NCBI GenBank assembly: GCA_026993785.1
Contig: JALWRZ010000010.1
Location: 337,199 to 401,198, forward strand
Direction: 5' to 3'
DNA: 64,000 nt
DNA from: DHVE2 group archaeon
Lineage (GTDB): Archaea > Thermoplasmatota > Thermoplasmata > Thermoplasmatales > Aciduliprofundaceae
The position numbers and the translations under genes were made by a program. The first letter of the stretch is position 1. The number at the start of each line of letters is the position of its first letter. Below are positions 36,309 to 45,293 of the stretch, piece by piece. The notes below the pieces were generated by a model. The model had not been told where the DNA came from, made no database searches, and saw only the letters and a list, made by a program, of their open reading frames with translations.

Positions 36309-37939
36309 TAAATCCAGAGCTGGAAGAAATAAAAGACATCGTTGCTCAAAATTTCAAATTTTATGATTTTAGAATTTTTCCCGATCACCTGGAATTCTAT
36401 ATAACCTTTGAGAATGAGAAAACTTTAGAGATGAATTTTGAAAACCTGCGACTTCAATTTAAGGAGAGAAATTTGATTCCCTTCCTCCGAAGAAAGGGAG
36501 GAGAATATGTTATCATGGTAATGAAAAATCCACCGCGGAGGTATCGGAGCGTCTATATTAATATCATCCTCCTGGTACTGACCTTTGCATCTACCATATG
36601 GGTAGGCTCTTTGTACTATTATAGTTATTATGGCGTCTCTGATTTATGGCACCAGCTGTGGGGCGGGTTCCTTTATTTTTCAGTACCTCTTCTGGCCATT
36701 CTGGGCTCCCATGAGATGGGCCATTACTTTGCTGCTAAGAAGCACAGGGTAGATGCCTCACTCCCATTCTTCATACCTGCACCCACGATATTCGGAACTT
36801 TAGGGGCGTTCATATCCATGCGGGATCCAATCCCCAACAGGAAATCTCTTGTGGATATAGGCCTGGCTGGTCCTATAGCAGGTTTTATCGTGGCCATTCC
36901 CGTAACCCTCATAGGAATCTATCTGGGACATATTCATACACCATCGCCGCCACCACAATCTGGAGTTGTAGTGCATCTATTTCATATGCCTCTTATCTAC
37001 TATCTCTTCTTTCTTATAATTCCACCCTCGGAGTTTATGCATCCTGTGGCTATGGCGGGATGGGTTGGTTTCGTGGTAACAGCCATAAATCTCTTCCCCG
37101 TAGGACAGTTAGATGGCGGGCATGTGGCCAGGGCACTGGCAGGCGAGAAAGCAAAGTATATAAGCTATGGATTCGCAGCGCTTCTTGTCGCCCTAGGATA
37201 CTTTTACATTGGGTGGCTCATCTTTGCCTTTCTTGTGATATTTTTGGGACTAAGACATCCCCCACCCCTTAATGACGTTGTGAAGTTAGATAAGAAAAGA
37301 ATCGCCCTTGCGGTAAGCGGGTTCCTACTTCTGGCAGTAACCTTTGTACCCGTGCCCATAGAGACCGTGCATGAAAGTCTAGAGCTAGAGGTATCTACCA
37401 CATCCACATTTCTCATTGAGGGGCTCAGTGATTCTGCTACCTTACATATCTGGATCAACAATACTGGAGATGTAGAAGAAAACATCACCTTGAAAGTTCA
37501 AGGCCAATTCATAATCCCTCAGCATAATTTTACCTTTAATCTGTCCAAGGGAGAAGGAAAAATGATAAAAGAGGATGTTTGGATGCTGAAAAAGGGGATG
37601 CATACCCTCCATATAATGGCAAGCACTATAACCAACACAGTATACTGGAAAAATATTACCTTCAAATGCTTTGAGAAGAGCCCCAGCTTTAGCTTTAATA
37701 GAACTATAGTGCATGGCTATGTTTTCAATGTGACCCTCTCCAATTTCGGGATGGCCAGAAATTTGGAATTTTTGAGCTTTAACAACGTGAGCTTTAATAT
37801 CACAAATCTACCGAGTACCTCCCTCTACCTAGAAAGTAATTCCTCTTACCAGCTACAGTTTGTTGTGACTGCTCCAACCATTATTTTAGCAGTAGACCCT
37901 GAGAATTACGAGGTTACCTGGTTGAAAGTAGAGATTTGA
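36305..37939 (+). CDS. Site-2 protease (M50) with C-terminal extracytoplasmic domain
   Basis: SHEMGHYFAAKKHRVDASLPFFIPAPTIFGTLGAFISM, NLFPVGQLDGGHVARAL; C-terminal about 180 aa beta-rich. Confidence 0.93.
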   Translation: MINPELEEIKDIVAQNFKFYDFRIFPDHLEFYITFENEKTLEMNFENLRLQFKERNLIPFLRRKGGEYVIMVMKNPPRRYRSVYINIILLVLTFASTIWVGSLYYYSYYGVSDLWHQLWGGFLYFSVPLLAILGSHEMGHYFAAKKHRVDASLPFFIPAPTIFGTLGAFISMRDPIPNRKSLVDIGLAGPIAGFIVAIPVTLIGIYLGHIHTPSPPPQSGVVVHLFHMPLIYYLFFLIIPPSEFMHPVAMAGWVGFVVTAINLFPVGQLDGGHVARALAGEKAKYISYGFAALLVALGYFYIGWLIFAFLVIFLGLRHPPPLNDVVKLDKKRIALAVSGFLLLAVTFVPVPIETVHESLELEVSTTSTFLIEGLSDSATLHIWINNTGDVEENITLKVQGQFIIPQHNFTFNLSKGEGKMIKEDVWMLKKGMHTLHIMASTITNTVYWKNITFKCFEKSPSFSFNRTIVHGYVFNVTLSNFGMARNLEFLSFNNVSFNITNLPSTSLYLESNSSYQLQFVVTAPTIILAVDPENYEVTWLKVEI

Positions 37940-38603
37940 ATCGCAATGCATCTTCCCACATATTGGTGTTATTGAACATCACATAATCCCCGTCCTTCAC
38001 CAATTTTTTGAGCCGCAATAGCTCCTCGTCACTGTAGCGATATCTGTAACTGCCTATGCCATGGAGCCTATAATAGGAAAACTCGCCCCACACCTTCTCT
38101 CTTTTGAATGGGTCCACAACATGAATCAATTTAACCTCTTGACATATTTTTCTCACGGTTTCATCGCTCCAATTCCCTCTCGGTTCCCATCCGAACACAA
38201 AATCCCGCTCTATGGAGTTAAAGAACTCGTATATGTTTCTCACATTCTCCTCTTTCTCTTTGAAACTTGCGGGACTTTGAAAGATTATTATATCTGCGTG
38301 AAGTATTTTAGCTATCTCCCTGAAGTGTTCCCAGGATTCCATCGTATCCTGATTTACTTTAAAAAAGCCGAAGTCCCCCATTTTTCCTTTGTATCTTCGA
38401 TATGTAGGACTGCTAGGTGGATGAGTTATAGTCTGCGGCGCTTTTAAAACGAACTCGAAATCATCAGGAGCTTGCTCCCTCCATTTAGCAGCCAGTTCTG
38501 GGGAAATTGGCGTATAAAAGCTTTTCTGTATTTCCACTACCTTGAACTCTTCGAAATATTTCTTTCGCGATGCCGAGAACCCACAGGTTCCTATGTGAAT
38601 CAT
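37914..38603 (-). CDS. DUF72 family protein
   Basis: MIHIGTCGFSASRKKYFEEFKVVEIQKSFYTPISPELAAKWREQAPDDFEFVLKAPQTITH; start at 38603. The ORF-track extension to 38984 runs through a repeat element. Confidence 0.9.
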   Translation of the reverse strand: MIHIGTCGFSASRKKYFEEFKVVEIQKSFYTPISPELAAKWREQAPDDFEFVLKAPQTITHPPSSPTYRRYKGKMGDFGFFKVNQDTMESWEHFREIAKILHADIIIFQSPASFKEKEENVRNIYEFFNSIERDFVFGWEPRGNWSDETVRKICQEVKLIHVVDPFKREKVWGEFSYYRLHGIGSYRYRYSDEELLRLKKLVKDGDYVMFNNTNMWEDALRFKSLLSTR

Positions 38604-38639
38604 CAATATCTCTAAGAAAAAAGGGAATTTAAAACCTTC

Positions 38640-38895
38640 CCCAATGGGAACCACCAGCGGGTTCCCATCCCCTCCTGCAACCAAACGATGCGATGAACCT
38701 CCGGCGGGTTCCCATACCATCCAGCATCCACACTGGGAACCACCAGCGAGTTCCTTTACCTCCTGCACTAGACCCCTCCAGCGGGTTTCTAGTACTTCCA
38801 GCAACCCTGGGAACCACCAGCGGGTTCCCATTCCCTCCTGCAACCAACCAAACACGTGGGGGTGTAGAGAGGGGGTGAAACCCCCTCCGTAGGGA
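38640..38895. repeat. Hairpin repeat array (five hairpins plus conserved tail module), copy 1
   Basis: Hairpins at 38646-38666, 38695-38712, 38735-38754, 38768-38792, 38809-38829, most with ccagc/ccggc loop core and a ycctgcaacc or yccagcaacc spacer; tail cgtgggggtgtagagagggggtgaaaccccctccgtag. Confidence 0.9.
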
Positions 38896-38928
38896 AAGTT
38901 TATAAATTCACGCTCTTTACCATTAAAT

Positions 38929-39441
38929 ATGGATGAGATTATGAAGAAGGTGGAGGCTGTTCTGTTCTCTTCTGAAAACCCCATGAGGGTTGGAGAAATC
39001 GCCGAGATAATTGGTCACCAATCTTCTGAAGTTAGCAAGGCTATGAAGAAATTGAGAATGGAATATGAGAAGAGGAAGGGGGCTATAGAAATAGCAAAGA
39101 TAGGAAACAAGTATGTTATGCAGTTGAAAGAAGAGTATCTGGAATATGGGTATCGCGTGGGTAAGAGGGAGATGAGCGATGAGGTGCTTCGCACCCTGGC
39201 TATTATAGCTTACTATCAGCCTATTACGCAGAGCAAGCTTCGGGAAATTATTGGCTCCAGAGTTTATGAATATGTGGATGAGCTAAGACACCGTGGCTTC
39301 ATTTATGGGAAGAAATCCGGAAAAACTGTGGTGTTGAGAACTACCAAAAGATTCAACGAGTATTTTGGAATAGACGCATCCAAGCCGGAAGAAGTTAAAA
39401 AATTTCTGGAAGAGAAGGCAGGAGGTGAGAAAAATGAATAA
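38929..39441 (+). CDS. scpB: Segregation and condensation protein B
   Basis: KKVEAVLFSSENPMRVGEIAEIIG, LRTLAIIAYYQPITQSKLREIIGSRVYEYVDELRHRGFI. Confidence 0.93.
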   Translation: MDEIMKKVEAVLFSSENPMRVGEIAEIIGHQSSEVSKAMKKLRMEYEKRKGAIEIAKIGNKYVMQLKEEYLEYGYRVGKREMSDEVLRTLAIIAYYQPITQSKLREIIGSRVYEYVDELRHRGFIYGKKSGKTVVLRTTKRFNEYFGIDASKPEEVKKFLEEKAGGEKNE

Positions 39442-45174: not shown

Positions 45175-45262
45175 CACTAGACACCTCCAGCGGGTTTCTA
45201 GTACTTCCAGCAACCAACAAAAATCGTGGGGGTTTAGAAAGGGGGCGTAGCCCCCTTCGTAG
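45175..45262. repeat. Hairpin repeat element (one hairpin plus conserved tail module), copy 2
   Basis: ctagacacctccagcgggtttctagtacttccagcaacc (45177-45215) matches 38768-38806 with one mismatch; tail cgtgggggtttagaaagggggcgtagcccccttcgtag. Confidence 0.9.
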
Positions 45263-45293
45263 AAATAATTAAATTGGAGATGCATTTCACTTT

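Follow-up and report, generated by a model that had tools for sequence, protein, structure and literature searches.

Short hairpin repeats of one archaeal family occupy promoter spacers, tRNA introns and insertion sequences in DHVE2 archaea

The array of hairpins that precedes scpB in the stretch of DNA analysed here (the window, 64,000 nucleotides) is probably one copy of a group of non-coding repeats restricted to a single archaeal family. The repeats are of three types, A, G/T and H, each a hairpin with a short tail (about 35–45 nt). They would be non-autonomous, copied at the level of DNA, and would settle where they do no harm. They occupy at least three niches: intergenic spacers with core promoters at their edges, tRNA introns at position 37/38, whose interiors they form, and a DDE insertion sequence (IS), several copies of which contain them. 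They are dispersed, and the occupant of a given site changes from one congener to another.

An earlier note, made from the letters of the window, had described five related hairpins followed by a conserved tail. The hairpins are real: an unbiased repeat search recovers five direct copies, at 38645, 38692, 38734, 38769 and 38808, which are 63–98% identical to the first, and the 21-nt hairpin (up to three mismatches) has three matches where 0.00 are expected (100 shuffles). The features are as follows.

37914–38603, minus strand: left neighbour, putative DUF72-type gene (label of the earlier note; ORF list), start MIHIGTCGF at 38603, pointing away from the element
38628–38634, minus strand: TATA-like box of this left gene, TTTAAAA, about 25 nt 5′ of its ATG (38603)
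38645–38682, plus strand: type A unit 1, hairpin TGGGAACC/GGTTCCCA, tail CCTCCTGCAACC
38695–38729, plus strand: type A unit 2, CCTCCGGCGGG subtype
38734–38767, plus strand: type A unit 3, TTTACC subtype, which tRNA introns in the genera g1, g4 and g5 also carry
38769–38806, plus strand: type A unit 4, stem CTAGA/TCTAG, tail ACTTCCAGCAACC
38808–38845, plus strand: type A unit 5, near-identical to unit 1
38856–38894, minus strand: type G/T unit (the "conserved tail"), reverse complement CCCTACGGAGGGGGTTTCACCCCCTCTCTACACCCCC
38892–38906, plus strand: BRE/TATA of scpB, GGGAAAGTTTATAAA, with the TATA box TTTATAAA at 38899
38929–39441, plus strand: scpB (ORF list, ATG at 38929), counterparts of which were recovered in relatives
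45178–45263, plus strand: second, smaller element, one type A unit (45178–45215, CTAGA stem) and one G/T unit

The tail is present, but it is a reverse-oriented unit of a second repeat family, with the architecture of the G-type introns of tRNA-Pro (intron GGAGGGACACCTATGGTTTCCCTCTCTACACCC); the short-loop T form is equated with G by inspection. Both the unit and the tail are thus tRNA-intron sequences, which the earlier note could not have seen. The whole element fills the gap between two core promoters, TTTAAAA at 38628 (leftward) and TTTATAAA at 38899 (scpB), and its G+C content is 59.8%, compared to 41–43% in the flanks. Since both TATA boxes face outward and have the array on their upstream side, the structured RNA leader that had been proposed is contradicted; this candidate is also at odds with the conservation of the scpB promoter box GGAAAGTTTATAAATTC in two relatives (L041 and L042) which lack the element and in which the upstream gene is different. 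In L041 (MAG AUK260), the scpB spacer holds another repeat-like sequence (GGGGGCAAAGTCCCGAAGGACAGAACGTAAGCC...). The smaller element of the window lies between a leftward gene and a flavin-dependent-thymidylate-synthase-like gene, with A+T-rich promoter boxes at both edges.

The type A unit consists of 38 nt, a hairpin and its tail. Stem pairing is present in 93.5% of the cells of the alignment, and changes on both sides occur at 3 of the 8 stem pairs (20 cells). The covariation score is 0.214 against 0.130; every slid control is lower and none of 500 shuffles reaches it, a count that is indicative only, the sequences being related. The loop CCWCCRGCG and the tail CCTCCWGCAACC are nevertheless better conserved than the stem across genera. 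Pairing is kept and the stem covaries, but selection does not act on folding alone. The conservation of loop and tail suggests a sequence-specific recognition or function. A Chi-like octamer, GCTGGTGG on the minus strand, was considered and rejected; it differs from unit to unit.

The 256-bp element matches about 45 places in the 1.66-Mb genome from which the window comes (G000, the own genome below), in which a covariance model of the unit detects 71 type A units (E ≤ 0.01). Of 18 genomes from this family (the relatives named here are DHVE2/Aciduliprofundum MAGs), 16 contain type A according to this model. The core pattern of type H is present in 13 of the 18. Among 300 genomes sampled evenly across the class, six have matches, all of them members of this family. 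The full element has no match in 44 genomes from other families of the order, and the type A unit was found in none of the genomes tested outside the family. The group includes at least one long-cultivated species, A. boonei. The number of units varies greatly: the own genome has 71, three congeners have 3, 1 and 5, G016 has 32, and the closed genome G009 has a single one, in a tRNA-Pro intron. The idea of a dispersed and apparently undescribed element is borne out by this family-wide distribution, and the literature searched contains no description of these repeats and none that links Aciduliprofundum with tRNA introns. Both observations that would speak against such an element, a lack of further copies and a loss of pairing, were looked for; what was found is the 71 units and the covarying stem.

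Short extragenic palindromes in mosaic intergenic clusters, present in many copies (71 units in the own genome), recall the REP/RAYT systems, in which a Y1 transposase moves REP palindromes and which the earlier note had put forward. This is very improbable. Indeed, the own genome, which is 99.8% complete, has no Y1 transposase (PF01797); the 18 genomes contain two isolated hits, neither of them in a unit-rich genome, and the units are in direct rather than alternating orientation.

In the own genome, type A units occur in mosaics with G and T blocks, less often with H, and these mosaics fill spacers as far as the BRE/TATA of the neighbouring gene. Forty-four clusters were scored for context, with simple ORFs as gene calls: 22 lie between divergent genes, 17 between tandem and 4 between convergent ones. 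From the G/T end to the adjacent start codon there are usually about 25–56 bp, this end being just 5′ of the TATA box, and in the clear tandem cases it faces the promoter in a ratio of about nine to one (own count). The promoter of rps12 illustrates how such a spacer is filled. In G001 it is empty and reads ...GGGTGAATAAAATTTTTATATAGG, with unrelated sequence upstream. The own genome has an A+G+T mosaic there, which ends at the same TGAATAAAATTTTTATAT as G001, and in G002 the mosaic is H+T+G, its end falling on the same or nearly the same base as in the own genome. No element is present at rps12 in the g2 and g5 genomes shown; the comparison leaves out four genomes. The junctions of the rps12 mosaics fall at the BRE. 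Repeats can therefore take up a promoter spacer right to the BRE with no apparent harm. In another locus of the own genome (L012, right half, contig C1 at about 59–61 kb), a CRISPR array (repeat TTTCAATCCCACCATGGTCCGATTCTAAC) has a tRNA-Arg gene and an A+G/T element as neighbours, and a Cas1 gene is found near this array, at C1:63616.

These promoter data bear on the regulator-binding array suggested in the earlier note, that is, a functional array at the DNA level whose CCWCCWGC motifs would bind a regulator or an architectural protein between promoters. The better conservation of loop and tail, the spacing of the motifs (about 20 bp apart within units), the placement between core promoters and the polarity of the G/T end towards the promoter in most copies are all in its favour, and it stays as a rival. 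It is nonetheless unlikely, because the rps12 promoter of congeners is empty (G001) or carries unrelated H+T+G repeats (G002), one species has 71 copies against 1–5 in its congeners, and the same unit is found in tRNA introns and within transposase genes.

Twenty type A units lie inside tRNA genes, all of them on the sense strand. Judged by sequence, the tRNAs which carry them are tRNA-Gln(CUG), tRNA-Gln(UUG), tRNA-Pro(UGG) and tRNA-Pro(CGG); the isotype labels given by ARAGORN are often wrong for these tRNAs because of the intron. When the Gln and Pro tRNA genes of the 18 family genomes are gathered, position 37/38 shows either no intron or one of three unrelated intron interiors.

tRNA position 37/38, intron interior of type A: GGAACCACCAGCGRGTTCCTYTACCTCCTGCAACC
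tRNA position 37/38, intron interior of type G: GAAGGGGCACCAAGGTTCCCCTTTCTAAACCCTTCC
tRNA position 37/38, intron interior of type H: GAAGCCCCTTTGGAAAAGGTGCTTTACCCCCAAAGGGCTTC

Type A is hosted by Gln and Pro tRNAs, type G by Pro, and type H by Gln, Glu, His and Ile. Outside Gln, H introns occur in two tRNAs of the own genome, tRNA-Glu(UUC) and tRNA-His (both isotypes were assigned by inspection), and in tRNA-Ile of g5. G and H introns match intergenic repeats at 87–95% over 33–39 nt. The intronic copies sit at 37/38 in otherwise intact tRNA genes, of which intronless orthologues exist. Minimum-free-energy (MFE) folds of the Gln introns predict the anticodon stem, a 4-bp helix and bulges ahead of the stem of the repeat; the bulge-helix-bulge (BHB) is less clear in the folds predicted for the Pro and Glu introns. 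The intronic copies form the interior of BHB-type archaeal tRNA introns, which would be removed by splicing. The tRNA-Pro(CGG) genes of G004 and G010 (L193 and L212) carry a further intron type, GTGGGTGCATC...GATGGGCCAACC, unlike A, G and H and absent from the intergenic loci that were fetched.

The occupant of a given intron changes between close relatives. In genus g5 (G007, G009, G011 and G013, in this order), Gln-UUG carries H, H, A, H; Gln-CUG carries H, none, A, A; Pro-CGG carries G, G, G, A; and Pro-UGG carries A throughout. In g1, Gln-CUG carries H, A, A, A, and Pro-UGG has A in G000 and G in G001 and G003. The flanks of Gln-UUG are syntenic between G008 (H) and G016 (A), with 89–93% match on both sides, and the region is collinear (89.8% over 3 kb; no further indel reaches 22 nt). 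The nucleotides adjacent to the splice sites are constant (e.g., 3′ GAGGAG in Gln-UUG) while the interior varies, so the conservative claim is that repeats replace the interiors of introns. Part of the swapping may thus be replacement inside old introns and not the gain of new ones; the presence or absence of the whole intron varies too. Orthologous tRNA genes which differ only in the occupant of their intron are snapshots of intron change. In G016, a partial duplicate of the 5′ end of tRNA-Gln(CUG) (TAGCCCCGTGGTGTAGTG), joined to a G-block-like hairpin, lies 54 nt before the gene itself (L182); it is missing in G008.

The variants of type A sort by lineage and not by niche, as expected if the niches exchange copies; the lineages are not independent, hence no P value is attached to this sorting. 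In g1 and g5, the linker TTTACC occurs within introns as well as in intergenic copies. TATAACC does likewise in g2, and in g3 it is found in intergenic copies. Genus g4 is an exception, with two introns, one of each kind. One intron of G008 is of the CCTCCGGCGGG...CATACCCTCCAGCATCC subtype, which is common in the intergenic arrays of the own genome. The same sequences in and outside introns provide a visible source for archaeal tRNA introns. Whether the protein-spliced tRNA introns of these archaea are, more broadly, one niche of small mobile repeats, which would move between promoter spacers, insertion sequences and tRNA genes, so that an intergenic reservoir would supply the gain and replacement of tRNA introns over times comparable to those of species, is in our opinion evenly balanced.

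Two other explanations start from the intron itself. In the first, excised and possibly circular tRNA introns would be reverse transcribed and integrated, in the manner of a retro-intron or a SINE. All intronic copies are sense, A, G and H all occur as introns, and the only A unit of G009 is intronic, as this RNA-mediated spread would have it. We consider it improbable, however: none of the 18 genomes encodes an RVT_1 (PF00078) reverse transcriptase, and the intergenic copies lack intron ends, such as the 3′ GGTTCCC-GAGGAG of the Gln introns. In the second, the intron would give rise to a small RNA, acting as a guide or as a Shine-Dalgarno decoy via ACCUCCU, and the intergenic arrays would be extra copies of its gene. 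The tail ACCTCCTGCAACC is strongly conserved between genera, and the compensatory changes in the stem also fit a small RNA. This is somewhat less probable still, because the arrays lie 5′ of both outward promoters and would need one of their own, there is no Rfam match at gathering scores (which also counts against an RNA leader), and in close relatives the intron is swapped for an unrelated sequence or missing.

The third niche is an IS of the DDE_Tnp_1 type with ends GGGTAAGTTG...CAACTTACCC. In several genomes, type A units lie 5′ of its transposase gene or within it. Five copies of the IS in G005 have the unit at one identical internal site, while their outer flanks differ; in this one genus, the units were therefore multiplied together with the IS. 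A related IS copy (L197) has no unit. For this reason, and as the true ends of the IS are elsewhere, the A unit was rejected as an end of the IS. The idea that the unit is an intron spliced out of the transposase gene was likewise rejected: on inspection, the flanking codons are partly lost and excision would not restore the frame. At the element loci of the own genome, no IS sequence is seen besides the unit itself. H-like and G-block-like hairpins are also inserted in the transposase gene of the DDE IS, and their position in G005 is about the same as in G010 (L070 and L071).

In the preferred reading of dispersed non-coding repeats, the units would be selfish or neutral non-autonomous elements, presumably copied as DNA through recombination or gene conversion, and would occasionally hitch-hike inside the DDE IS as a carrier. 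They would persist where insertion is tolerated, namely 5′ of the BRE/TATA, in the spliced-out segment of a tRNA or inside an IS, and they would influence the flanking promoters, if at all, only secondarily. Against this reading, no dedicated enzyme, target-site duplication or transposition event was observed. The higher conservation of the loop and tail of type A than of its stem, and the possible replacement inside old introns, count against it as well. Moreover, random neutral insertion predicts neither the sense orientation of 20 of the 20 intronic A units nor the polarity of the units at the promoter end. Tolerance alone does not explain these two features, which are the weak point of this reading.

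The units might also be mini-elements mobilised by a casposase: G blocks start with GGGGA/C and end with TCCCC. The casposase of A. boonei has TCCCC-type ends as its minimal substrate and targets a tRNA-Pro gene (PMC6614799), and G blocks of the form GGGGCACC...TTCCCC agree with these published properties. There is nevertheless little chance that a casposase is responsible: the own genome, the richest in units, has a single Cas1, which is near a CRISPR array, and no casposase, and no target duplications of 14–15 bp were noticed.

Several known systems resemble this one. In Thermoproteales, a 2010 study, as related in later accounts (PMC4090602, PMC4033280), found that similar intron sequences recur from one tRNA gene to another, which implies that BHB introns were transferred recently; these accounts give the transfer between tRNAs as inferred and its mechanism as unknown, and a review calls for snapshots of tRNA intron insertion. 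Reviews also mention, for Caldiarchaeum, the gain of a tRNA intron together with an integrating element. The present case, in Thermoplasmatota, differs in that the sequences inside the introns are found as mosaic repeats between genes and within the IS too, and in that several unrelated families take each other's place at a single site. The secondary accounts mention no intergenic copies of the Thermoproteales introns, which the original paper may do. The BIME/REP and NIME-like mosaics of bacteria are also made of short palindromic units in intergenic mosaics, with high copy numbers and a lineage-restricted distribution, but the units described here are without RAYT, directly repeated, bounded by core promoters and present in tRNA introns. 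The STAR elements of Staphylococcus (PMC3532100) are interspersed intergenic direct repeats with lineage-specific copy numbers, whereas the present units are hairpins, archaeal, and have an intron niche. MITEs (PMC10969869) are likewise small, non-autonomous and dispersed through non-coding DNA. For the units, neither target duplications nor terminal inverted repeats that match those of a transposase element are established (the units do have hairpin arms, but the ends of the co-occurring DDE IS are different), and, unlike MITEs, the units ride inside the IS instead of being deletion derivatives of it.

Lastly, long G blocks (GGGGCACCTACGC...GCTCGCA-hairpin-TGCTCGTTTCCCC) are found in loci of the own genome that include L010, L013 and L026. 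Their hairpins have constant frames and very different stems, and they form a further structured repeat.
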